DNA from: Massariosphaeria phaeospora
Taxonomy: Eukaryota > Ascomycota > Dothideomycetes > Pleosporales
Assembly (NCBI GenBank): GCA_011032825.1
Contig: JAADJZ010000007.1
Location: forward strand, 1,364,001-1,428,000
DNA length: 64,000 nucleotides
Direction of reading: 5' to 3'
The position numbers and the translations under genes were made by a program. Positions 1-31,177 of this stretch are shown here, one piece after another; positions within the stretch are counted from its first letter, which is position 1; the number at the start of each line of letters is the position of its first letter. The notes under the pieces are model-generated. The model saw only the letters and a program-made list of their open reading frames with translations. It did no database searches and was not told where the DNA came from.

Positions 1-1340
1 CGCGCACGAACACGGTACTAGCTTTCTAACGCTATTGTTTTTAACTAAAAAGCACAATTCGTAGGCAACTTTTAGAAAACACTTTGCGCAGAGCTAGAAA
101 TAACAAAACAGCTTTCGACAGCTTTCTACCTAAAAACTAACGAAGCTACAAAGAAAGCAAATTTGACAATTAAAACTATCTTAAAGCCGTTTGTAAACTA
201 AAACTAAAAAAACTAAGCGCAGCTATGTTCTATTGTACAAATCGCAATCTAAAAACTACGCTAGCGAATAGGTAGAAAGTACCTATTAATAGGTATAAGT
301 TAAGTTATAAGTCGCACAAACTTTAAGTTAAAATTAAGTTAGAGTTAACCTAGCGTAGGTAGGAGTTAAGTTAGAGTAGTTAAAGCTCTAGGTTAAGAGT
401 TAAGTTAGAGTTACCTAAATAGTTAAAAAACTATAATAAATAAATGTAATAAATATACATAGAAAACTTAATTTCAATATAAGTTGTAAATATTATATAA
501 GACTTAACTACAACTTTAAGCTTTAACTACTTTAACTCAATTTCAACCTAAGCTACTTAGTAACTAGCGCGAGTTAAAGCTAGAGTTGAGTTAAAGTCTA
601 ACGTAAGCTAACTCAACTCTAACTCAACTTCTATCTATTTACTAGCCTACTAAAGACGAGAAGTAGTATTAACAAAAGTAAGCTTTTTCTTTCTGCAGCA
701 TAGCTACGAGATAGACCTAATTTAGCTCTAAGCAAAGAAAAAAGCGGACACGCTTTACTAAGCAACTCTAGACTCTAAGCAAAGCGCAGCAGAAATAGCT
801 AAAAAGATAAAAAAAGTTATCGACTTTGCGCAAGCTGCTATAGCAAAGGCTTAACAAGAGCAAGAAAAACAAGCAAATTGATATAAAAAAAAAGCGCCTT
901 TGCTTTAGGTAAAGAACAAAGTCTAGTTGTAGTATAGCAAACACATCTCTAATAAGCGCCTAAGTAAAAAACTTAACTAGAAAAATAGTAAGTATATAGT
1001 TTTAGAAGTTAAATCTTTACGCAATGTCGTTTTGAATACTTTACTAGAGATAAATTCAACATTTCTAATAAATAAGCTTAGACTCGCGGTAGACTATTTT
1101 TTGAAAAGCTAGATAGTATTTAATTAGCGCCTAAGAAGCGTTACCGTAGAAAGCGAGCAAGAATAGCTAGTTAAGCGCATTACTAGCGAGCGCTAGAAAA
1201 AAGTTAAAAAAAGCTAGAAGCTAGAATATTAGGTTAAATAAACTAGCTATAACTAGCCTACATAGAAACTAGCGCTAGAAATCGAAAACACAAAAGCTTT
1301 ATTTACCTAGCAAGAATTTTCGGCAGCTTACTAGAACGCT
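1..1340 (+). mobile_element. Ty3/gypsy chromodomain retrotransposon, 3' pol end, RIP-degraded
   Basis: Read through many stop codons that look like mutated CAA, CAG or TGG. Bases about 50-256 give an integrase core end (QFVGNF, then a LSTAFY...TDG-like and ANLTI stretch). After the MITE at 257-649 the frame continues with an SFFFLQH.YEID stretch, a lysine-rich helix, a KNKV.L...SKKL..KN.KY.VLEV block and a chromodomain with a YNQPTW core near 1200-1330. This order (integrase, C-terminal domain, chromodomain) is that of chromoviruses. No intact ORF remains and the 5' part lies outside the window. Family assignment is firm; exact ends are not. Confidence 0.8.
257..649. mobile_element. 393-bp hAT-type MITE, RIPed copy
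   Basis: Ends are TACGCTAGCGAAT and a near-inverse ending TAGCCTA, flanked by CTAAAAAC (249-256) and CTAAAGAC (650-657), an 8-bp target duplication with one G-to-A difference. It has the same length and layout as the GC-richer copy at 30785-31177; over the first 60 positions the two differ at 14 sites, all C-to-T or G-to-A in this copy. It interrupts the gypsy integrase. Ends match the two 6-kb hAT copies, so it is probably a non-autonomous derivative. Confidence 0.9.
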
Positions 1341-6100: not shown

Positions 6101-7093
6101 CTAAGTCTCTCAACTCTAGAAAAACAAAATAAACGAAATTAAAACAATTCTTTGTTTTTAGATTTAGAGCAACACGCTTTGAATAAGCAATTAGCTTACA
6201 AACAACTATTTAACGCATTACAAGAATCTTAAAAACTTTCTACAACTTAAATTAAAAGCTATATACCTAATTAACATAAAAACAACGCTTTAAAACGTCG
6301 AAACTTTGATTTTAGCACTAACAACGTTATCGAAGGCCTACGACGTACACGACAAAATGCTAATTTTTAAGCGCTAAAGAAATAGCACTCTTACGCCGTT
6401 TTATACAGAGAATTAGTTAACAACTACTTTAAAGCTTTTTTAACTGCTTTAAAAGCTAAGCTAACAACAAAGATACACTGTTCGTAGGTGCTAAAAGCTC
6501 TTCGATTATATTAAAAGCTCGAATTTTATTTGTTTAGAGAGCAGTTTTGACAAGCTGCGTAAAAAGAGTATTGTAAAATATAAAGCAAAAGTTGCTTCGC
6601 TAGAACAACACAAATAGTAGAAACTGCTAACGTAGAAGTACTACCTCTAATGTAGGTATTTACATACAAGTTTAATAAAAACAACTACTTTTATTAATTT
6701 AAAGTACGACTTGTTGTTTGCAGTAACTACGCTAGCGAATAAGTAGAGAGTACTTATTAATAGGTATAAGTTAAGTTATAAGTCGCATAGACTTTAGGTT
6801 AAAGTTAAGTTATAGTTACTCTAGCGTAGGTAGAAGTTAAGTTAGAGTTATTAAAGCGTTAAGTTATAGTTTAGTTAGAGTAATTAAAGCTTAGAGTTAG
6901 AGTTAAGTTAAAAGTTATATCTAAGTTATAAAGTTATGTGTTAGCTTAGAAAGTTGCTAAAGTTTAAAAAGTTATTACAGCTAGTTATTACATTTAAGAA
7001 CGCGCAAATTGTATTTACAAAGTTTTGTTATTACAGCTACTATTTACGTACAAAAACACAAGTAGAGTAAAAAAAGTTGTATTACTACAGATA

Positions 7094-9965
7094 TTAATTA
7101 CGGTAGCGTAAAAGTCAAGCGCGCTTTCGTAGCAAAAGTAGCAAATTCTCTTTTCTTAAATTATTATCTAATAGAGTTATTCTTAATTGTAAAGGCCTAG
7201 ATGTAGGCCTAGATGTAGGCCTAGATAACGAGCTAAGTATAAGCCTAGATATTAGCCTAGATGTTAACCTAAATAACGAGCTAGGTGTAAGCGTAGATGT
7301 AAGCCTAAAAGTAAAGTTTACATACTACGCTTAAAAGTTAAGTAAGTTCTTAACTTTGTTACATAGTAGTTTTTTATTATCTGCTTTTGCAGACTAAAAG
7401 ACGCTGTCCTGTCCTTTCTCTTAAGCAATACAGTTTTTTAATATTATAATTTGCTAAATTGTTTAAGTAGCAAGTTAGTGCTTTCTATTGCTAATAACAT
7501 TCTTAGCAACGTTAAATTTGCGCTTAACTTCAACCTAAGCAATTTGTACTACAAGTACATTTTTTGCAACTTGTAATAAGCGTAAATACGTTTTTTTATT
7601 TACTTGCTACTATTTAAGAATATTAAAAAAGGCACTAGCGCGTACGCAAGCAATGCTTAGATAAGCTTCTTTTTCTTAGCAAGTTAAGCTTTTTTCTTTT
7701 TTTATTTTGTTTAAGTTAACAGATGAAAAACTGCTTGGCAGCAACTAAAGCAAAAGCTTTAGTTTTTAAAACTATTTACTACTTTAAGGTCTAGTTGTAC
7801 AGAACGAAAGAATAAAAGTAAAAGCAAAGCAAGTATTGTCGTTATAGCAATTAAAGTAATTAAAAAACTCTTTGCAGTAAGTGTGCTTGTTTTGATTATT
7901 TTAAGTTTCGTTTTAAACGCGCAGTTAGCATATAACTGTAATAAGTAACTGTAATAACTATATCTCGTACGCCGTAAGCTTTTAGCTAGAGTCTAAAATA
8001 GTAGCATAATTAAATAAAAACTTTTGTTTATTGCTAGTTTTTTTATAATACTTGCTAAGTTTAGCTTTTTTTTATCTGCAGCAGCTCGTACAACTGTAAG
8101 CTACTTAAAAGTATTTTAATTTTCTATATCGTCGTTAAGTTTGTCTTGCTTACTATTTAAAAAGTTAAAAAAACAGTTGTACATAAGCTAGATATACTAG
8201 ACTTGTAGCTTATAGTTTTTACTTAAAAAGTTTGTTACGTTTTTAAAGTTTTTAAGCATATTAGTAATTAACTTTAAGTAGTGCTATTTGTTTAGTGTTA
8301 ATTTTAGTTGCTTAAAGTTGCAGAAGTTTACTTTTGCTGTATTTTTATTATCTAAGATACTGCTTGCACTAATTGTTATTTTAAGTGCAATCTCTTTTAC
8401 TAGCTATTTGTTAATAAATTTTTAAATTTTAAGTGCGCGCTTGTACATATTGTAAGTTAAATTTTATTGTATTTTAACGTTGCGGATAACAGACATTTGT
8501 TGTTTTAGTAGCAAGTGTAGTTGCGTAGCGATAAACCGCTTGTATTGTTAAAACAACAAATTAATTGCTATGCAGATAGCTTAAAGCTAGGTGTGTATTA
8601 GGCTGTAATAAAAGTATGTAATAACGCACTGTATACTTTGCAAAAAGAGTTTAAAACAAAAATATTCGCTTGCACGTCGCTTAAATAGCGTCTTTGTTGT
8701 ATTTTTTTTAGTTTAACGTTAGCACCTACTAATGCTGCAAGCTTAAAGTGTAAAATAATATTTTAAACAACAAAGTTAATAATATAAGCAAAACACAAAA
8801 TTGAGTTTTTTAATAAGCTTTAAAGTATGTTCTTTGCTTTTAGTTGCTGTTTAATAACACAACTAAGCGTTTTGTTTTTTTTAGCATTATTCGCAGTAAT
8901 TGCTAAAAAGCGTAATTTAATGCTAGTGTTTAAGAGTACTTGCAATATATTAGCAGCTGTAGCAGCACTAGTATGTTTTTCGCGTAGAGAAACGAAATTT
9001 AGTAACTTCTCTTAAAGCTGCTAGTTGCAGTTAACGTAGTATCCTTTAACTGCAAAAAAACTAAAATAATTAAAAGCAAACTACTTATCTATCGCAATTG
9101 AGATCTTAGTTAACTAGCTAATGTTATTAAAAAGTAATGCTTTAGCTTTTTCAAATCGTTTATAGAACATTTTTTAAAATTTGAATTAGCTAATACTTAG
9201 AATATTAGGTTAAAGAAATTAAAGAAATTGCTAGAATAAAAGCCGCTTAATTGTTTAAAAAAACTAGTTGCTATATATAACTACTCGTACTAGTTTCTAT
9301 TTAAAAGCCTAAGTTAAATATAGTAGTACAATAGTAGTAAATTAAAGTTAACGTAGTGCTAGCTGTAAACAAAGTTAAAAGTAAATAAAAGCAAGCGTTC
9401 TTTAGCAAGTCTTAAATTCAAAGTAGTTAAGTAAGTGTTTAGTTTTAATAGTTTTAACTACTAGGTGCTAAAGAGCAAGGCTGCAATTATAGCAGAATAC
9501 GTAAGAGTAGCTATTACTAGAATTAGCAGCTTTTTCAAACTGTAGCTATACCTAACTAGTGCGTACAGCAAAGTTTTATTGCAAATTTGCTGTCTTTAGG
9601 TCTAGAGCTTACTTAGTAAAACTCTACTACATTTTCTACGCAGTTACTACTGCTTCTTGTTCTATATTATCTTTAATATGCGTAAAAGAATATTTTACTA
9701 GATGTAGTTTATTTTTTTCTCTCTTTTAAACGAATTGCTTAGCGTTGAATTTAAATAAACGAACAAGTAGCAAAGGTTTTGCTATGTTTATAACAAAAGG
9801 TATAGTACAAAAGCGTAAGTACTATAATAATAAACTATAATAATTAGTGTTAGAGTAGACTAAAAATAGAGAATAAGTACATTGCTAAAGAAAAACACGC
9901 AGATTGTTAAAAAAAAACAGAACATGCTTTTTTGCTTGCGAAATATTGCTAACGTCCAAGCGCAA
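7094..9965 (-). pseudogene. hAT transposase, copy A, RIP-destroyed
   Basis: Collinear with the better preserved copy at 17172-20044, including the short AGGCCTA-type minisatellite encoding the proline/threonine-rich tail (about 7195-7320). Riddled with stops; identified only by alignment with copy B. Confidence 0.8.
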
Positions 9966-10145
9966 AGGCTAAAGCAGTAATGCAACTAAGATTAAAGCTA
10001 AAATTAAAGTCGCAGTAGTAGCGCCTTAATTTTACAGTTTTAATTAGGTTATACTTGCTAATTTGTTAATCGCAATGTTATGCACGTTTTAGGCTGCGTT
10101 ATAAATAGTAGATACTAGCTATGTTTATGCTAGCAACGTTTTAAT

Positions 10146-11944
10146 TTACATAGAAAGTAAAGAGCTTTAGGTTTGCGCTTCTTTATAAGCGTTACTATCG
10201 TTAGAAAAACTCTCTTAATCTAAATACTCTACTAACTTAGTTTGCTCTACTACTTTAACGTACCTTACGAGTAGTTAGGCTACACGAGTTCGCAAAACAC
10301 TTTTGCCAAGCTTCTACTAACTCTACCTATGTACACGATGCTTTAACAACAACACTAGATAGAACTTTCTAATAAACGTTAGATACAAACTGCTTTTCAA
10401 GCTTTTAAACAAAACGCGACACTTTTTTTGCAACGCGCTGCAGCTATCTATAACGTCTCTCGAACAACACTAAGCTATTAACGCGCTAGACGACTTTTAC
10501 AAGCAGATTATAAGCCTAAATCAATAAATCTAACAAAAACTAAAAAGAGCGTAGTTGTTGAGTATATACTTAAGCTTATATCGCGCGAATTTCTTTCTAA
10601 GCTCGCAGCTGTAGCTGATATAGCCAATTCCTTGCGCGCAAAGCGCAATCTAAGCTAGGTTAGCTTAAACTAGTCTAGTACGTAGGTTATGCACTGCTCT
10701 AAGTTTACAATAAAGTTTAATCGCAAGTACAATTACAAAAAAGCGCTTTGCGAGAATTTTAAAGTTATCTAAAGCTAGTTTCGCCTAGTAGCCAACATAA
10801 AAGCCAAGTATAGTATCTAGAATGTAAACACGTACAACTTTAACAAAACAAGCTTTATAATAGGCTAGATATTAACTAAAGCAGTTGTTACAGCTTTAGA
10901 AAAACGAGAACGGCTAAAGGCAATACAGCAAGGCAATAGAAAGTAAACAATAGTTATTTAAAGCATCGTTGCTGTTAACGCGTAGTTTAAAAGAAAGCGT
11001 AAGCTTGCGTAAGCTAGTGTAGTTAGTATAGGTATGTAATAAACTACTGTAATAACTTACTTCTAGTTCTTAGCAGTTACTAGTGTTAGATTCTCTAGAG
11101 TTAACGTTTTCACAAACTTTTGCTAATTTATTTTAGCTTTCTCGTTTTTAAACGAATTATTCTTTAACTTAGCTAATTCGTCTAAGTAGATACGTCGTAT
11201 AATTCTATTAGTAGCTCTGCTAGCGCCAAATATTCGCGACATTAGCTAATTCTTAATTTTCTTTTTGTTTTCTAGTGCTTTGGCAATTTGTTTAAGAATG
11301 TTTTTGTGCTGTTAAAAGTTAACATTGTAATAAATACAGGCCTACTTTTTATAGGCAAAGCTAAGTTTTGCTTAAAGCTACTTAACTGCGTATTGTAAGT
11401 ACAATAACGTAATAAACTAATATAATAACTTACTGCTTTTTTGTGCGCGGTAGCGTTGCTTATCTAAAAGCTTAAGTTTAGTTGCTAACTGCTTTTTCTA
11501 GTCGTGCGCAAACAACGTAGTAAACTTTTCCTTCGCCTTAAGCTTCTTTTTAAGCTAGTATTTTGCTTGCTAATTTTTTGCACTAGCATTTGCAATAGCT
11601 TTTCTTTTAGCACTTAAGTAAGCTGTTTAATTTCTCTAAGCAGTTGCGCAAGCAGTATTGCTTAATTAACTTTTAAATAGTAGCTTGTAATGTGTAGAGC
11701 ACTTTTTTTGTAATTTAACGCAACTGCAATCTGCTAGTACGCTAAGAACTTCGTGCTTTTTAAACTTAAAGCTCTAAGTTTGTTAGCAAATGCTGTAATA
11801 AACTTTTGTAATAATTACATTTGTAAGCGCTTTTTACTTTGCTAGCTTAAACCTAGTTAAAACTTCAATTTCGTAAAGCGAAAGCAACTTATTATTAAGC
11901 TCGTAGTTTATTTTGTTGTTAAGCTTTTGCTTAATTGCAGCTAT
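10146..11944 (-). pseudogene. lysine-rich element gene, copy A, disrupted
   Basis: Counterpart of 15652-16991. The start is ATA rather than ATG (C-to-T on the plus strand at 11942). About 260 bp of the gene present in copy B (roughly 16634-16893) are missing here, replaced by the 703-bp pogo/Fot1 fragment at 10258-10960, so an insertion was followed by a deletion. Confidence 0.75.
10258..10960 (+). mobile_element. pogo/Fot1-type (DDE_1) transposon fragment, 5' part
   Basis: Inserted at TTTA in hAT copy A (TA target) and beginning ACGTACCTTACGAG. The reading gives a CENP-B-like HTH region, then the DDE_1 hallmark stretch: RLVANIKAKYS, YNFNKTSFIIG (YNFDETGFMMG in the family), then an RERLKAIQQGN block. 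The 3' half, including the second TIR, is deleted together with host sequence. Confidence 0.75.
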
Positions 11945-12239
11945 CGTATTTGTAATAAATGTAGGTAATAATAAAGCTAGTTGTAGTACGTAGGTAGGTA
12001 GAAGCAGAAAGTAAAGTAGTAGAAAGTTAGGTAGCGAATTTACAAGCTAAATTTTGTGTAAAGTAGCTTGTGCGCTGCTGCAAAAGCTGCAGCCTTAGCT
12101 AGCGCTTTGCTGCTAGCTACTCAAAACACGCACTTCTACTACAGCTTCTGCAGCTTTCTTACTTACCGTAATTATTACAAATAATTATTACGACTTTCTA
12201 CTCTTTATACTACACTTATTACGCATTAATTCTTTCGCA

Positions 12240-12792
12240 ATAGCTTGCACTAAGCAAACTAACTGCTACTACTTTGCTACTAGCAGCAAGGTTTTGCAAA
12301 AGCTTTTCGCAGCAAAAGTAGCTTGCAAATCTAGCAATCTGTACAAGAACAAAAAGAAACTAACAACAAGTAGTATAAAAAAGCTTTACTACTAAAAGCA
12401 AAAAAGTAAGTTATTACAGCAGTTAATTGCAGTTTTGTTTTTAACAACATGCAGCTGTTGCGTTGCGCAAAATTTAACAATACTAAAAATCAACTAAGCT
12501 TTTTATGCGCAAACTGCTATTTAGTCGGCTAGTTCGCAAGATTGCGTAAAAGTTTAAGCTTAATCTACGCTTTCAAGCTAGTGCAATTAAAGCTATACAA
12601 AAAGTAACAAAGGCTTTTCTAATTAGCATTTTTAAAAGTATAGCTTTCTACTTGTTGCTAAGTGCAAAGCTAACTTTAATAGATACTAATATTAACGCTA
12701 TACACGCGAAACGAGTAACGATTAACACAAAAAACATAAATCTAGCACAAAGATACTACAAAAAGTACAAAAAAAGTTTGCAGCAAATGTAA
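12240..12792 (+). pseudogene. histone H3-like gene of hAT copy A
   Basis: Collinear with 14804-15356, of the same 553-bp length and with both introns in the same places. Despite heavy RIP the histone fold is legible: SRLVRKIA, then [17 protein letters not shown], then a [13 protein letters not shown] stretch after the second intron. The start is ATA in both copies, as expected from G-to-A change of ATG. See copy B for the full reading. Confidence 0.85.
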
Positions 12793-13186
12793 AAGCTAAA
12801 GTCTAGTTGCTACTTGTTCTAGCGGTATAAAGCTATAATAATTTTAAATTTTTTAGCAATACTTAGCGTAGACGTTGCTTTGTACTTAGCTATTAAAATG
12901 CAACTAATTCTACGCTGTAATAACAATCTATAATAAACTTAAGCAACTTGTACTTTGCTAACGTTAAAATACAATATGTAAACTCTAAATATAACAACTT
13001 AACTATAACCTAACTATAACCTAGAGCTTGTGCGAGATAACTCAACTTTAACCTAAAGTCTATGCAACTCAACTTAACTATAACCTTGTACTAGCGTTAA
13101 AAGATTAAGTATATAAGTAGAGTTGAGTTAGAGTTATAAAAAAAGCAACTTAACTTTAACTTAACTTTTACTTATTTGCTAGCCTA

Positions 13187-14409
13187 GCAGTAACCTATAG
13201 TAGCTATATAAAAATACCTACGCTGCTACACTAGCTGCTCAAACATTTCAAGCACTTATCGCAATAGCTAATTAATTCAAATTAGAGCTACTTTAGTACG
13301 ACGTATTAAACGCGTTTCTTAATGCTACACTTAATCAAAAGCTCTACGCCTAGACACTAGATAGTTTTAAAAAGAATAAAAAGCTACTACAAGTGCTAAG
13401 AGCTTTGTACGAACTAAAGAAATTACTACTTTTGTAGTACAAGAACCTAAAAGAGATACTAAAGTCTTTAAGCTTAACGCTTATATTAAGATTTCTATGC
13501 GTTTACGCTAACAGCTAGTTAATTCTATTTATCTACGTTAACAATATCGTTATAGCTTTTTACTTATCAAATAGGCATCTACACTAAGAATTTGAAAAAA
13601 AGCTTAACAAGCATTATAGCTTTAAATGCCTTAGAGAACTTAAGTAGTTCTTAGGCATACGCGTTGTTTAAGACACTAACGCACGCACGATTTACTTAGT
13701 ACAAAACGCTTACATTAACAAAGTTGCTGCTAAATACAATATTATTTTTACTAGCTACTCTTTTAAAGTGCCTATGCTAGTAAACTACTTAGAACAATTT
13801 CTTAAAGAACTAAACGAAGCTTAAACGAAAACTTATTAAAAGCTTGTAAGCTACTTTGCTTACCTAACGCAGTATACACAACTTAATCTAGCTCGCGCTT
13901 ACGTTATCTACGCTTTACATTTAACTAACCTAAGTTAAGCGTACGTTAAATCTATTTAAAAAGTGTAGCGTTACATTTTTAAAACAAAGTACTAAGCTTT
14001 GCAAGCTTAAGCTATTAACAAAGCAAAGATACAAAAGTATCTTGCTACACTACAAAACTATCGCGATCCTATTTTTTTTAGAGTATTTAATGCTTTTTTT
14101 GCCAACGACGTTAAAACGCGTCGAAGCTTTTAAGAATACGTATTTTAGCTATTTAGCATAACTGTTAACTAAAAGTCAACACTCTAACGCACTGTTACGA
14201 AATTAACAACTAAAGCAAAGCTGCTTGCTTTATTACTAACTAGATTAGAAATAGAGAAGTAGTGCTGCCTATTTAAAAAACTGTTTTTAAAGCTAAACTA
14301 AACGCTTATTATCTAGTGTAACAATTAATAGATAGTAAGTATAGTTACAAAAAAGCAAAACAAGCTTAGTACTAAGCTTAAACACGTTGACATTTACTAG
14401 AACTAGATC
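13187..14409 (+). pseudogene. copia reverse transcriptase/RNase H segment between the two hAT copies
   Basis: Continues the copia frame broken at 6719. The reading includes a TYAATLAAQTFQALIAIAN stretch, LYELKKLLLL, LILFIYVNNIVIAF (RT active-site region with YVNN), FLGIRVV, and RNase H motifs to KLKHVDIY. It is broken again at 14409 by hAT copy B and resumes at 20411. RIP is heavy. Confidence 0.85.
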
Positions 14410-14803
14410 TAGGCTAGCGAATGAGTAGAGGTTGAGTTAAAGTTAAGTTGCTTTTTTTATAACCCTAACCTAACTCTACCTATATACCCAATCTTTCAAC
14501 GCTAGTACAGGGTTATAGTTGGGTTAGGTCGCATAGACTTTAGGTTAAAGTTGAGTTATCTCGTACAGGCTCTAGGTTATAGTTAGGTTATAGTTAAGTT
14601 GTTATATTTAGAGTTTACATGTTGTATTTCGACGTTAGCAAAGTACAAGTTGCTTAAGTTTATCACAGATTGTTATCACAGCGTAGGATTAGTTGCATTC
14701 TAATAGCTAAGTACAAAGCAACGTCTACGCTAGGTATCGCTAGAAAATTCAAAATCATTATAGCCTTATACCGCTAGAACAAGCAGCAACTAGACTTTAG
14801 CTT

Positions 14804-15356
14804 TTACATTTGCTGCGAACTCTCTTTGTACTTCTTGTAGTATCTCTGTGCTAGATTTATGTTCCTCGTGTTAATCGTCACCCGTTTCGCGTGTATAGCG
14901 TTAATATTGGTATCTATTAAAGTTAGCCTTGCACCTAGCAACAGGTAGAAAGCTATACCTTCAAAGATGCTGATTAGAAAAGCCTCTGTTACTTTTTGTA
15001 TAGCCTCAATTGCACTAGCTTAAAAGCGTAGATTAGGCTTAAACTTTTGCGCAATCTTGCGAACTAGCCGACTAAATAGCAGTTTGCGCATAAAGAGCTT
15101 AGTTGATTTTTAGTATCGTCGAATTTTGCGCAACGCAACAGCTGCATGTTGTTAGAAACAAGGCTGCAATTAACTGCTGTAATAACTTACTCTTTTGCTT
15201 TTAGCAGTAAGGCTTTTTTACACTACTTATTGTTAGTTTCTTCTTGTTCTTGTACAGATTGCTAGATTTGCGAGCTACTTTTGCTGCGAGAGGCTTTCGC
15301 GGAACCTTGCCGCTAGTAGCAAGGTAGTAGCAGTTAGTTTGCTTGGTGCAAGCTAT
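14804..15356 (-). pseudogene. histone H3-like gene inside hAT copy B
   Basis: Three exons (15356-15191, 15141-14959, 14913-14804) join in frame to 152 codons, close to H3 length. The start is ATA (from ATG), then a TKQT motif (H3 K4 context), SGKVPRKPLAAKVARKSS (compare GGKAPRKQLATKAARKSA), VKKP, TVALRKIRRY.KST, SRLVRKIAQKFKPNLRF, ASAIEAIQKVTEAFLISIFE and [14 protein letters not shown]: the H3 tail landmarks and the whole histone fold in order. The segment after TKQT where ARKS (K9) should be is divergent. Three in-frame TAA codons fit C-to-T or G-to-A change of CAA or TGG. Introns are 49 and 45 nt with TCTAAC/GCTAAC branch points. Replication-type H3 or a centromeric variant as ancestor cannot be decided here. 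Confidence 0.9.
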
Positions 15357-15651
15357 TGCGGAAGAATTGATGCGTAATAGGTGTAGTGTAGAGAGTAGAA
15401 AGTCGTGATAATTATTCGTGATAATTACGGCAGGTAAGGAGGCTGCAGAGGCTGCAGCAAAGGTGCGTGTTTTGAGTAGCTAGCGGCAAGGCGCTAGCTA
15501 AGGCTGCAGCCTTTGCAGCAGCGCACGAGCTACCCTACACAGAATTTAGCTTGTAAATCCGCTACCTAACTTTCTGCTACCCTACTTTCTGCCTCTACCT
15601 ACCTACGTACTACAACTAGCTTTATTATCACCTACATTTATCACAAATACG

Positions 15652-16991
15652 ATGGCCGCAATTAAGCAGAAGCTTAACGACGAGATAGACTACGAGCTTG
15701 ATAATAAGTTGCTTCCGCCTTACAAAATTGAGGTTCTAACTAGGTTTGAGCTAGCGAAGTGGAAAGCGCTTACAAATGTAATTATTACAAAAGTTTATTA
15801 CAGCATCTGCTAACAGACTTAAAGCTTTGAGTCTAAAGAGCACGAAGTTCTTAGCGTACTAGCGAATCGCGGTTGCGTTAGATCACGAAAAGAGCGCTCT
15901 ACACATTACAAGCTACTGTCTAAGAGTTAATTAAGCGATACTGCTCGCGCGACTGCTTAGAGAGATTAGACAGCTTACTTAAGTGCTAAAAAAAAAGCTA
16001 TTGCAGATGCTAGTGCAAGAGATCAGCAAGCAAAATACTAGCTTAAGAAAAAGCTTAAAGCGAAGGAGAAGTTTACTGCGTTGTTTACGCACGACTAGAA
16101 GAAGCAGTTAGCAACTAAACTTAAGCTTCTAGATAAGCAACGCTACCGCGCACAGAAAAGCAGTAAGTTATTATATTAGTTTATCACGTTATTGTACTTA
16201 CAATACGCAGTTAAGTAGCTTCAAGCAAAACTTAGCCTTGCCTATAAAAAGTAGGCCCGTATTTATTACAATGTTGACTTTCGACAGCACAAAAACATTC
16301 TTGAACAAATCGCCAAAGCACTAGAAGACAAGAGGAAGATTAAGAATTAGCTAATGTCGCGAATATTTGGCGCTAGCGGGGCTACTAATAGGATTATGCA
16401 ACGTATCTACTCAAACGGATTAGCTAAGTTAAAGAATAATTCGTTTGAGAACGAGAAAGCTAAAATAGATTAGCAAGAGTTTGTAAAGACGTTAACTTTA
16501 GAGAATCTAACACTAGTAACTGCTAAAGACTAAAAGTAAGTTATTACAGCAGTTTATTACATACCTATACTAACTGCACTAGCCTACGCGAGCTTACGCT
16601 TTCTCTCGAACTGCGCGTTAACAGCGACGATGCCTATGAAGATATCAACAGCCCGTATATTCCAGCGCTTACAATTGATAAGTGTAAGAAAGAAGCAAGT
16701 AGCAACTTAGAAATTAATGCGTTCTACAATAAGTGTAAAAACGAATATAAAACAAAAGATTAGTAGAGAAAAGCGTTAGCAGAAGCAAACGAGTCCTCTA
16801 GTGAAAATAAAGAAAAAGTTGAAAATAAAGATAAGAATAAGGAGCAGAATAAGGTAGTAGATGAGGTAGTAGAGCAGACTAAAGTAGTAGAGCAAACTAA
16901 GTCGGTGAAGTATTTAGATTAAGAGAGTTTCTCTAACGATAGTAACGCTTATAAGAAAGCGCAGACCTAAGGCTCTCTACTTTCTATGTAA
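15652..16991 (+). pseudogene. lysine-rich, charged protein of unknown function carried by the hAT element
   Basis: I do not recognise the family. Exons 15652-15777, 15817-16162, 16211-16535 and 16583-16991 join in frame to 402 codons, which supports the splice sites. The protein begins MAAIKQKLNDEIDYELDN, has a long K/A/Q-rich probably helical middle (KKKAIADASARDQQAKYQ..), and ends with an E/N/K/V-rich tail (about 16790-16930) and SLLSM. Several TAA/TAG codons replace likely Q or W codons. It diverges from the H3-like gene across a 295-bp region with TTATCACA motifs, and precedes the transposase on the same strand. Its presence in both hAT copies shows it is part of the element. Confidence 0.7.
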
Positions 16992-17171
16992 ATTAAAACG
17001 TTGCTAGCATAAACACAGCTAGTATCTATTGTTTATAACGCGGCCTAAAACGTGCATAACATTGCGATTAACAAATTAGCAAGTATAACTCAATTAGAAC
17101 TGTAAGATTAAGGCGCTACTACTGCAACTTTAATTCTAGCTCTAATCTCGGTTGCATTACTGCCTTAGCCT

Positions 17172-20044
17172 TTGCGCTTAGACGTTAGAAATATTTCGCA
17201 GGCAGAAAAGCATGTTCTGTTTTTCTTTGACAATCTGCGTGTTCTTCTTTGGCAATGTACTTATTCTCTATCTTTAGTCTACTCTAACACTAATTATTAC
17301 AGTTTATTATTACAGTACCTGCGCTCTTGTACTATACCTTTTGTTATAAACATAGCAGAACTTCTGCTACTTGTTTGTTTATTTAAATTCGACGCTAAGC
17401 AATTCGTTTAAGAGAGAAAAAAGAATAAACTACATCTAGTAAAATATCTTTTTACGCATATTAAAGATAATACAGAACGAGAGGCAGTAGTAACTGCGTA
17501 GAAAATGTAGTAGAGTTCTACTAAGTAGGCTCTAGACCTAGAGACAGCAAATTCGCAATAGAACTTTGCTATACGCACTAGTTAGGTATAGCTACAGTTT
17601 AAAGAAGCTGCTAATTCTAGTAATAGCTACCTCTACGTATTCTGCTATAATTGCGGCCTTGCTTTTTAGCACCTAGCAGTTAAGACTATCGAAACTAAAC
17701 ACTTACTTAACTACTTCGAATCTAGAACCTGCCGAAGAACGCTTGCTTTTATTCACTCTCAACTTCGTTTACAGCTAGCACTACGTTAACCTTAATTTAC
17801 TACTATTGTACTACTATATTCGACCTAGGCCTTTGAACAGAAACTAGTACGAGTAGTTATATATAGCAACTAGTCTTTTTAAACAATTAAGCGGCCCTTA
17901 TTCTAGCGATTTCTTCAATTTCTTTAACCTGATATTTCAAGTATTAGCCAATTCAAATTCTAGGGAATGTTTTATGAACGATTTGAAAAGGCTAAAGTAT
18001 TACTTCTTAATAACATTAGCTAGTTAACTAAGATCTCAATTGCGATAGATAAGTAGTTTGCTTCTAATTATCTTAGTTTCTTTGCAGTTAAAAGATACTA
18101 CGTTAACTGCAACTAGCAGCTTCGAGAGAAGTTGCTAGATTTCGTTTCTCTACGCGGAAGACATACTAGTGCTGCTGCAGCTGCTAATATACTGCAAGTA
18201 CTCTCAAACACTAGCATTAAATTACGCTTTCTAGCAATTACTGCGGATAATGCTAAGAAAAACAAAACGCTTAGTCGTGTTATTGAACAGCAACTAGAGG
18301 CAGAGGACATACTTTAGAGCTTATTAAAAAACTCAATCCTGTGTCTTGCTTACATTATCAACCTTGTTGTTTAAAATATTATTTTACACTTTAAGCTTGC
18401 AGCATTAGTAGGTGCCGACGTTGAACTAAGAGAAATACTACAAAGACGCCATTTAAGCGACGTGCAAGCGAATATCTTTGTTTTAAACTCTTTTCGCAAA
18501 GTATACAGTGCGTTATTACATACTTTTATTACAGCCTAACACACACCTAGCTTTGAGCTATCTGCATAGCAATTAATTCGTTGTTTCAACGATACGAGCG
18601 GTTTATCGCTACGCAACTACACTTGCTACTAAAACAACAGATGTTTGTTATCCGCGACGTTAAAACACGATAGAATTCAACCTACGATATGTGCGAGCGC
18701 GCACTTAAGATCCAAAAATTTATCAACAAATAGCTAGTAAAAGAAATCGCACTTAAGATAACAATTAGTGTAGGTAGTATTCTAGATAATGAGAATACAG
18801 CAGAGGTAGACTTCCGCGACCTTAGGCGACTAAAATTAACACTAGACAAATAGCACTACTTAAAGTTAATTACTAATATGCTTAAAAACTTTAAAGACGC
18901 AATAAACTTCTTAAGTAAAAACTACAAGCTACAAGTCTAGTATATCTAGCTTATGTACAACTGTTTTTTCAACTTTCTAGACAGTATGCAGGACGAACTT
19001 AACGACGACATAGAAAATCGAGATACTTTTAAGTAGCCTACAGTTGTACGAGCCGCTGCAGATAAAAGAAAAGCTAAACTTAGCAAGTATTATAAAAGAA
19101 CTAGCGATGAACGAGAGTTCTTATTTAATTGTGCTACTGTTCTAGACTTTAGCTAAAAGCTTACGGCGTACGAGGTATAGTTATCACAGTTACTTATTAC
19201 AGTCATATGCTAACTGCGCGTCTAGGACGAAACCTAGGATAATCAAAACAAGCACACCTACCGCAAAGAGTTTCTTGATTACTTTGATTGCTATAACGAC
19301 GATACTCGCCTTGCTTCTACTCTTATCTCTTCGTTCCGTACAACTAGACCCTAGAGTAGTAAATAGTTTCAGAGACCAAAGCTTCTGCCCTAGTTGCTGC
19401 CAAGCAGTTTTTCATCTGTTAACCTAAACGAAACAGAAGAAGAAAAGGGCTTAACTCGCTAAGAAGAGAAGGCCTATCTAAGCATTGCCTGCGTACGCGC
19501 TAGTGCTTCTTTTAATATCCTTAAATAGTAGCAAGTAAATAAAAAAACGTATCTACGCCTATTACAAGTTGCAAAAGATGTACTTGCAGTACAGATTGCC
19601 TAGGTTGAGGTCGAGCGCGAATTCAACGTTGCTAAGAATGTTATTGGCGATAAAAAGCACCAACTTGCTGCCTAGACGATTTAGCGGATTATGATATTAA
19701 AAAACTGTATTGCTTAAGAGAAAGGACAGGACAGCGTCTCTTAGTCTGCAAAGGCAAATAATAAAGAACTACCATGTAACGAGGTTGAGGACCTACTTAA
19801 CCTTCGAGCGCAGTATGTAGACTCTACTTCTAGGCCTACATCTACGCCTACACCTAGCCCGTCATCTAGGTTAACACCTAGGCTAACATCTAGGCCTACA
19901 CCTAGCCCGTTATCTAGGCCTACATCTAGGCCTACATCTAGGCCTTTACGATCAAGGATAACTCTGTCAGATAATAATTTAAGAGAAGAGAATTCGCTAC
20001 TTCTGCCACGGAAGCGCGCTCGACCTCTACGCTACCGTAATTAA
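17172..20044 (+). pseudogene. hAT transposase, copy B
   Basis: The frame is legible through RIP stops. An N-terminal C..C-type (BED-like) patch YNCGLAF...KTIETKHLLNYF lies near 17640-17720. The catalytic region includes LLDFVSLRGRHTSAAAA, FLAITADNAKKNKTL and LCLAYIINLVV. Near 18655-18700 is the hallmark DVKTRWNSTYDM. A C-terminal hAT dimerisation block (VLAVQIA.VEVEREFNVAKN, then DKKHQLAA) is near 19580-19690, followed by a repeated P/T/S/R tail from a 12-bp minisatellite (19850-19950). Introns at 18508-18550 and 19175-19225 fit the frame changes. The true start is uncertain: no ATG is seen, and the open frame extends to about 17172. Confidence 0.88.
19830..19955 (+). repeat. AGGCCTACATCT-type 12-bp minisatellite in the transposase 3' end
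   Basis: Tandem degenerate units (AGGCCTACATCT, AGGCCTACACCT, AGCCCGTCATCT) encode a proline/threonine/serine/arginine tail. The mirrored, RIPed version is at about 7195-7320 in copy A. Confidence 0.75.
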
Positions 20045-20410
20045 TATCTGTAGTAATACAACTCTTCTTACTTCACTTGTGTCCTTGTACGTGAATAGTA
20101 GCTGTAATAACAGAACTTTGTAAATACAATTTGCGCGTTCTTAAATGTAATAACTAGCTGTAATAACTCTCTAAACTTTAGCAACTCTCTAAGCTAACAC
20201 ATAACTCTATAACCTAGATGTAACTTTTAACCTAACTCTAACCCTAAGCTTCGATCACTCTAACTAAACTATAACCCAACGCTTTGATAACTCTAACCTA
20301 ACCTCTACCTACGCTAGAGTAACCATGACTCAACTTTAACCCAAGGTCTGTGCGACCCATAACCCAACCTATACCCATCGATAAGTACTCCCTACCTATT
20401 CGCCAGCGTA

Positions 20411-20634
20411 ACTAGATCTGCCAAGAGGTTAAGAAGAACTGCCTCTACGTTTACTAAAAGCTTACAAACTAAATGCTTGCTAACGGCATAACGAAAATTC
20501 TTTTTTAACAAAAGCACGTTGAATTTGTACAGCAACTCTACTAGATCGATATTCGTTTAAATGTTCGTGCGATAGAGAACAACGCTTAAGAAGTTCATCT
20601 TTACGTCGTAAGACAACTACAAAATAAAAGAGTG
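20411..20634 (+). pseudogene. copia 3' coding end between hAT copy B and the 3' LTR
   Basis: Completes the copia frame and ends in a purine-rich tract (AAAATAAAAGAG, about 20620-20632), the expected polypurine tract just before the LTR. Confidence 0.7.
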
Positions 20635-30784: not shown

Positions 30785-31177
30785 TACGCTGGCGAATGGG
30801 TAGGGGGTACCCATCGATGGGTATAGGTTGGGTTATGGGTCGCACAGACCTTGGGTTAAGGTTGGGTTAGAGTTAACCTAGCGTGGGTAGGGGTTGGGTT
30901 AGGGTGGTCAAAGCTCTGGGTTGGGGGTTAGGTTAGGGTTACCTAAATAGTTAAGAAACTGTGATAAGTAAATGTGATAAATATACATAGAAAACTTAAT
31001 ATTAATATAGGTTGTAAATATTATGTAAGACCCAACCACAACCCTAAGCTTTGACCACTCTAACCCAACCTCTACCCAAGCTGCTTAGTAACTAGCGCGG
31101 GTTAAGGCTAGGGTTGGGTTGAGGTCTGACGTAAGCTAACCCAACCCTAACCCAACCTCTACCCATTTACCAGCCTA
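30785..31177. mobile_element. 393-bp hAT-type MITE, essentially un-RIPed copy
   Basis: Ends TACGCTGGCGAAT and CCAGCCTA with the 8-bp duplication GCTAGACA at 30777-30784 and 31178-31185. The interior is mostly GGTTGGG, GGTTAGGG and CCCTAACCC blocks plus two TGTGATAA motifs (about 30960-30980). Same length as the RIPed copy at 257-649 and with termini of the 6-kb hAT element, so it can be mobilised only in trans. Confidence 0.9.

Follow-up and report, generated by a model that had tools for sequence, protein, structure and literature searches.

Why does a hAT transposon carry a histone H3 gene, and is that gene a passenger or a working part of the element? The question is raised by a 64,000-nucleotide stretch of the Massariosphaeria phaeospora genome (G000:C49:1364001-1428000, hereafter the window), in which an H3-like gene (H3L) occupies positions 14804-15356 of the minus strand. 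The initial annotation described it, from the letters of the window, as a three-exon, 152-codon gene read through RIP stops, lying as cargo between precise hAT ends and lacking the usual context of lysine 9 (K9); an element supplying such a histone, it proposed, could resist heterochromatin. Searches of the 42.08-Mb, 51-contig assembly place the locus in its family. It is almost certainly a copy, killed by RIP, of an H3L-carrying hAT element with the gene plan known from Pyrenophora tritici-repentis (Ptr). H3-carrying hATs are already published; what is new here is a set of introns at non-host positions, the loss of K9 and S10, and the TTATCAC motif in introns, leaders and element ends.

Element B and its intact relative

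The window contains two full-length hAT elements, A and B, in opposite orientation within an AT-rich, RIP-marked stretch. Element B (14410-20410, 6001 bp, plus strand, which is that of the transposase) has terminal inverted repeats (TIRs, TAGGCTAGCGAATG/TACGCTGGCGAATA) and a perfect 8-bp target-site duplication (TSD), ACTAGATC, at 14402-14409 and 20411-20418, so that the ends proposed for it are indeed precise. Element A (6728-13186, minus strand) is an inverted sister copy that is RIPped more heavily than B and is likewise flanked by a perfect TSD (GCAGTAAC). In A, 250 bp (positions 2225-2474 of element C, in the 3′ part of the central open reading frame, ORF) are replaced by 709 bp without match.

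Element C, on another contig (C23:1144888-1150888, loci L031 and L032), is also full-length (6001 bp), with TIRs and the TSD AATGTACC. It is un-RIPped: its GC content is 0.475, the RIP signature is absent by index, and the reading frames of H3L, the central ORF and the transposase are open. C thus provides an unmutated genomic copy for comparison, and B can be aligned with it from end to end (6001 bp) with no gaps. Among the 590 differences, 587 are C>T/G>A, falling in the contexts CpA (284, the largest class), CpT (131), CpC (110) and CpG (62). The TpA/ApT ratio is highest in A (2.19), followed by B (1.93) and C (1.17), against 0.96 for the host DNA of the window. Assignment to hAT follows from the 8-bp TSDs of A, B, C and nine of nine MITEs examined, the short TIRs, and a transposase with a dimerisation domain (PF05699, 1.3e-16 on C).

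The main text of Manning et al. (2013) describes in Ptr a hAT whose genes are a transposase, a central ORF and H3L, found in 26 copies and with ESTs (PMC3538342). Both hosts belong to the Pleosporales, both elements have TIRs and the same three-gene plan, and their lengths are close (~5.6 kb vs. 6.0 kb here). An H3-like gene, a central ORF and a transposase between TIRs, with insertions in the N-terminal tail of H3L (+2 and +8 residues here), correspond to the type set out in that account, which regards the Ptr protein as neither canonical H3 nor CenH3 and considers that it may have drifted (PMC3538342). The state of the copies differs: Ptr has 26 very similar H3L genes, two of them frameshifted, and a 2.3-kb chimeric short form (PMC3538342), whereas in M. 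phaeospora RIP is heavy, a single one of the ~42 loci is intact and 393-bp MITEs occur. No Ptr sequence appears among the matches listed in protein searches with H3L.

A second published group comprises the RIPped H3 hATs of six Mycosphaerellaceae (Dhillon et al., 2019, PMC6710886). As presented in the main text, the elements of Pseudocercospora, Cercospora and Sphaerulina share with those described here the 8-bp TSD and amplified H3-like sequences inactivated by RIP. They differ in length (9.5 kb in P. fijiensis), in carrying one or two H3 genes per element, in being intronless and in having no intact element copy (PMC6710886); A, B and C carry one H3 gene each, with introns, and one copy is intact. 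Further accounts of these elements did not appear among the titles listed by literature searches.

Structure and identity of the H3-like gene

In B, H3L is encoded on the minus strand by three exons. Exon 1 (15191-15356) specifies the tail TKQTN....GKVPRKPLAAK.ARKSS...VKKP, with a start codon that now reads ATA. Intron 1 (15142-15190, 49 nt, GTAAGT...CTAAC...CAG) is followed by exon 2 (14959-15141; TVALREIRRYQKST ... GIFE in the intact copy C), intron 2 (14914-14958, 45 nt, GTATAG...TAG, which read in frame would add 15 codons) and exon 3 (14804-14913), which ends QQM before the stop codon and, taken alone, matches Pfam Histone at 3e-7 as well as PDB H3 chains. This copy is dead: besides the change of ATG to ATA it has three inner stops, in exons 1 and 2. 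The H3L gene of A (12240-12792, plus strand) has an ATA start and four inner stops.

The corresponding gene of C (C coordinates 395-947, minus strand) maps onto window positions 14804-15356 without a gap. Its introns are of 49 nt (GTAAGT...CAG) and 45 nt (GTATAG...CAG), and read unchanged it gives a 152-aa protein (P0002) beginning MARTKQTNRHHPATGGKVPRKPLAAKATRKSS, identical over all 152 residues to the NCBI model 'histone H3 [Massariosphaeria phaeospora]'. Searches with the intact protein match Pfam Histone (3.1e-36) as well as H3 chains in PDB (1.1e-52), and the protein is of H3 type along its full length. The three-exon model of the initial annotation is therefore confirmed, as are its RIP stops. 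A random similarity read through stop codons, for which nothing speaks except the stops of the window copy, has a negligible probability and is ruled out by these matches and the NCBI model; a chance fragment in a single insertion is excluded by the ~42 H3L loci of the genome.

H3L and host H3 are identical at 96 of 136 aligned residues (pN 0.20, pS 0.67; dN 0.24, dS 1.7), giving a dN/dS of ~0.14 that is rough because dS is near saturation. The low dN relative to dS indicates long-term constraint on the protein. An AlphaFold model of H3L is weak (pLDDT 61, four helices). The protein is changed at R40 and in its C-terminus, and these changes could weaken its entry into nucleosomes. The host has a second H3-type gene with introns (L017, G000:C31:111900-115094), which we take to be CenH3 (CENP-A). 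A tree in which H3L and this host CenH3 are forced into one clade is not rejected (p-AU 0.225), both being on long branches.

Introns and origin

The introns of H3L interrupt codons 56 and 117 (both in phase 1), compared with codons 9 and 121 in host H3. Among 24 aligned copies the GT of both introns is retained in 24/24, as is the AG of intron 1; the 3′ site of intron 2 is AG in 10 copies and AA in 14. For the Mycosphaerellaceae, a captured transcript or retrocopy was concluded from the absence of introns (PMC6710886, main text), a feature that H3L with its two introns does not share. Spliceosomal introns at non-host positions are at odds with the transcript-capture account in its present form, unless they were gained later; capture of an H3 transcript or retrocopy followed by intron gain is possible. 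A 16-aa insertion reported in one Mycosphaerellaceae H3 copy (PMC6710886) resembles H3L intron 2, which amounts to 15 codons when translated in frame, and the two may be the same thing.

Host H3 appears unlikely as the direct source: the intron positions differ, and a tree places H3L outside the three ascomycete H3s. That tree has 27 rows and many open forks, and a constraint grouping H3L with the ascomycete H3s is not rejected (p-AU 0.21). Genome-wide introners were rejected as the source of intron 1 by exact match, GTAAGTTATCACAG having two occurrences in 42 Mb, both inside element C. Introns of two different genes of C have their first 14 bases in common, with an exact match nowhere else in 42 Mb; from these shared starts, copying of introns within a transposon is possible.

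Gene neighbours and the shared motif

A shared intergenic region of 295 bp (15357-15651) separates the divergent starts of H3L, on the minus strand, and the central ORF, on the plus strand; in C this region holds two TTATCAC pairs. The central ORF (15652-16970, plus strand), a pseudogene in B and open in C, has three short introns, an acidic C-terminus and an RRGRP stretch, and the 3′ end of its model is uncertain. Spliced open in C, it encodes ~384 aa with three reliable introns; a doubtful fourth is excluded from the seven introns counted, and the non-coding total of 1810 bp uses the 384-codon model. A Pfam search with it gave no family below 0.03. The transposase gene (17352-20044, plus strand), also a pseudogene in B, has in C an 859-aa model with two introns, the C-terminal piece of which matches Dimer_Tnp_hAT (PF05699) and the RNase-H part of which falls below the cut-off (E 0.022). 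Both models were obtained from C by a search over GT-AG introns, the start codon of the transposase being the analyst's choice.

The association of the three genes extends beyond the window. H3L is found within 2 kb at 33/39 central-ORF loci and within 9 kb at 30/39 transposase loci, and the central ORF within 2 kb at 33/42 H3L loci. By these counts and the ~42 H3L loci, histone H3 belongs regularly to the gene set of this hAT family.

The genes of C have a further feature in common, the motif TTATCAC. It is present at 18 sites in C (0.74 expected; maximum of 4 in 300 shuffles) and at seven in 43 kb of host-side sequence of the window. Of the 18 sites in C, 17 are non-coding (p ~2e-8): they lie in six of the seven introns, ahead of each of the three genes and, as pairs, ~250 bp from both ends. 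H3L intron 1 has the motif, as have introns in both neighbouring genes. Six pairs in C are spaced 13 bp apart, and a second repeat, GGTTGGGTT, occurs seven times on both strands together. A pair of the same spacing is present at 43 places in the genome, 28 of them in the MITE form (exact 20-mer), six in C, four in RIPped copies and five elsewhere, a distribution by which the pair is rejected as private to the element.

The MITE of the window (30785-31177, minus strand, 393 bp, TSD TGTCTAGC) has both family ends and a TTATCAC pair. It is not a simple internal deletion of C, since its match to C is confined to the two ends with their repeats and to a motif stretch of 29 bp. MITEs of this length show perfect 8-bp TSDs in all nine examined, and are shorter than the RIP length threshold of ~400 bp given in the main text of Dhillon et al. 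(PMC6710886).

This organisation bears on an alternative in which H3L serves transposition rather than silencing, for example by opening or marking the chromatin of the element or by helping the transposase complex on nucleosomes. The head-to-head arrangement with the central ORF would suit such a role, as would the motif pairs, which lie close to either end and in each of the three genes. Against it, the 393-bp MITEs moved without an H3L of their own, leaving perfect TSDs; action of H3L in trans is conceivable. We know of no precedent for a histone serving transposition itself, and consider this role unlikely.

VANDALs, another kind of transposon than hATs, provide a functional comparison. 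In Arabidopsis, a short motif is concentrated in the introns and upstream non-coding DNA of their own genes, as described in the main text for the VANC anti-silencing system (PMC5735166). The likeness is one of working only: the central ORF is without a Pfam match, and that its protein binds TTATCAC, as VANC would suggest, is at most a guess.

Genome-wide copies, RIP and selection

Matches to H3L merge into ~42 loci, to be read as at least 42, once one row of host H3 and two taken as CenH3 had been removed. The alignment covers 853 bp and 24 of 28 transposon loci (A and B are among the 28), four gapped or interrupted ones (L011, L012, L019 and L021) being left out. Relative to C, the copies have 66 to 164 RIP-type and 0 to 21 non-RIP differences; L020 has 51 of the latter, mostly in the flank, its first 79 bp being non-homologous yet included in the counts. 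There are no indels. All 23 other aligned copies are RIPped, each with the ATG lost and 3 to 7 inner stops, so that H3L does not stop RIP. Among the 24 fully read copies C is the sole intact one, and every other locus is either a short fragment or interrupted by inner stops. The pattern reads as if a source that remained readable had given rise to one copy after another, the older ones being mutated meanwhile.

Two pairs of H3L loci have identical match rows (G000:C28:2411 with C50:1646805, and C14:738241 with C18:14635), some of them near contig ends, and subtelomeric or segmental duplication is possible. A close H3L outside M. phaeospora is absent from the matches listed by three protein searches, which miss relatives without shared 5-mers and one of which listed 120 of 7991 matches.

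Five non-RIP coding differences from C are common to at least four copies, and all are protein-altering (V18, T28, Q139, K143 and M152 in C); should C hold the derived state, four of these changes become C>T/G>A. Two silent shared sites occur, each in two copies only. Recent purifying selection has left no sign among the shared non-RIP coding sites of the 24 aligned copies. Five nonsynonymous and zero silent changes at the coding sites common to at least four copies agree with the idea that a captured H3 gene rides along without benefit and drifts, having lost K9 by chance. So do the divergence of the tail and C-terminus and the lack of K9 in some other divergent H3-like proteins, and the authors of both earlier reports lean to drift or plain transduplication in their main texts (PMC3538342, PMC6710886). 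Against a mere passenger stand the frame and splice sites kept in C, a dN/dS of ~0.14 against host H3, a place near 33 of 39 central-ORF loci, an intron motif common to the other element genes and an alignment of 24 copies free of indels over 853 bp. We regard drift as a real possibility, short of a probable one.

A tail lacking lysine 9

The tail of host H3 reads TKQTARKSTGGK and that of H3L in C TKQTNRHHPATGGK. Seven of the eight tail lysines are kept (K4, K14, K18, K23, K27, K36 and K37), in agreement with the TKQT, K27-like ARKS and VKKP contexts recognised earlier. K9 is gone, S10 is gone too, and no lysine occurs between K4 and K14. Two residues are inserted in the K4-K14 interval and eight after K27-S28. 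H3L thus departs from canonical H3, in which the tail including K9 and S10 is near-invariant. The missing K9 context noted in the damaged window copy is real and no effect of RIP: C itself reads without it, and the 23 remaining aligned copies show RIP-type changes alone relative to C at codons 8-13, so that the loss is older than these copies.

Lysine occupies the K9 column in 21/21 other hand-picked H3-type proteins, and residue 10 is lysine in 85/85 MxRxK-starting proteins among the matches listed in a first protein search. Among the MxRxK-starting H3-like matches listed in a later search, 4/18 others lack that lysine, one of them having ARK after an insertion; uniqueness of the loss to H3L is thereby rejected. 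Three unrelated divergent H3-like proteins (P0131, P0133 and P0158; two environmental, one from Caenorhabditis briggsae) are without the ARKS context of K9. The chance that the single lysine lost of eight should be K9 is 1 in 8. Because of this coincidence level and the K9-less proteins among other divergent H3-like matches, the loss is suggestive: it hints at a purpose and is not proof of one. The main texts of PMC3538342 and PMC6710886 mention neither H3K9 nor lysine.

A possible counter-defence

A precedent comes from Neurospora. DIM-5 marks H3K9, HP1 recruits DIM-2, and DIM-2 participates in RIP of heterochromatic repeats, as set out in the main text of PMC11969663. According to the main text of PMC3248561, ectopic hH3 with K9L or K9R, S10A or even an additional G13 reduces DNA methylation in the presence of the wild-type histone and can wake a silenced reporter; for K9 changes the effect is semi-dominant. 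H3L resembles these alleles as an extra K9-less H3 beside the wild-type protein; they are engineered point mutants, whereas H3L is a natural transposon gene. M. phaeospora has one Pre-SET, one chromo-shadow and three DNA-methylase loci. The Neurospora precedent (PMC3248561) makes it reasonable to ascribe a plausible anti-silencing role to H3L.

In the corresponding mechanism, H3L would be an element gene kept for long rather than a passenger. It would be made from the region shared with the central ORF and then enter host nucleosomes, where a DIM-5-type methylase could not mark it, K9 and S10 being absent and the spacing altered. The mixed chromatin would lose H3K9 methylation and HP1-guided DNA methylation semi-dominantly, like that of Neurospora K9L/K9R, and the loss of silencing would help the element genes to stay expressed. 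Expression of H3L, its incorporation into nucleosomes and its effect on silencing are all inferred. Against such a role stand the RIP of the other copies, the lack of any sign of recent purifying selection and the unrelated H3-like proteins without K9. That a kept element gene counters H3K9-dependent silencing is accordingly weighed as quite possible, and not as probable; the explanation as a whole, identity and anti-silencing mechanism together, is the best we can offer and is put forward tentatively, at somewhat less than even confidence. A more elaborate version, in which H3L acts dominant-negatively in trans on H3K9 methylation, the central ORF, VANC-like on the TTATCAC array, aims the effect at the family, and MITEs too short for RIP ride along, appears rather improbable.

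The reading given by the initial annotation accordingly stands in part: the family has a regular H3 gene without K9, and copy B itself is a RIP-killed pseudogene, C alone being intact among the 24. Hitherto, H3-carrying hATs have been read as gene-capture accidents or drifting copies. In the intact element C, the H3L protein can be read without reconstruction, and it is missing the very residue that fungal heterochromatin and DNA methylation require. If H3L acts like K9-substituted Neurospora H3, these transposons would have turned a histone into a counter-defence.
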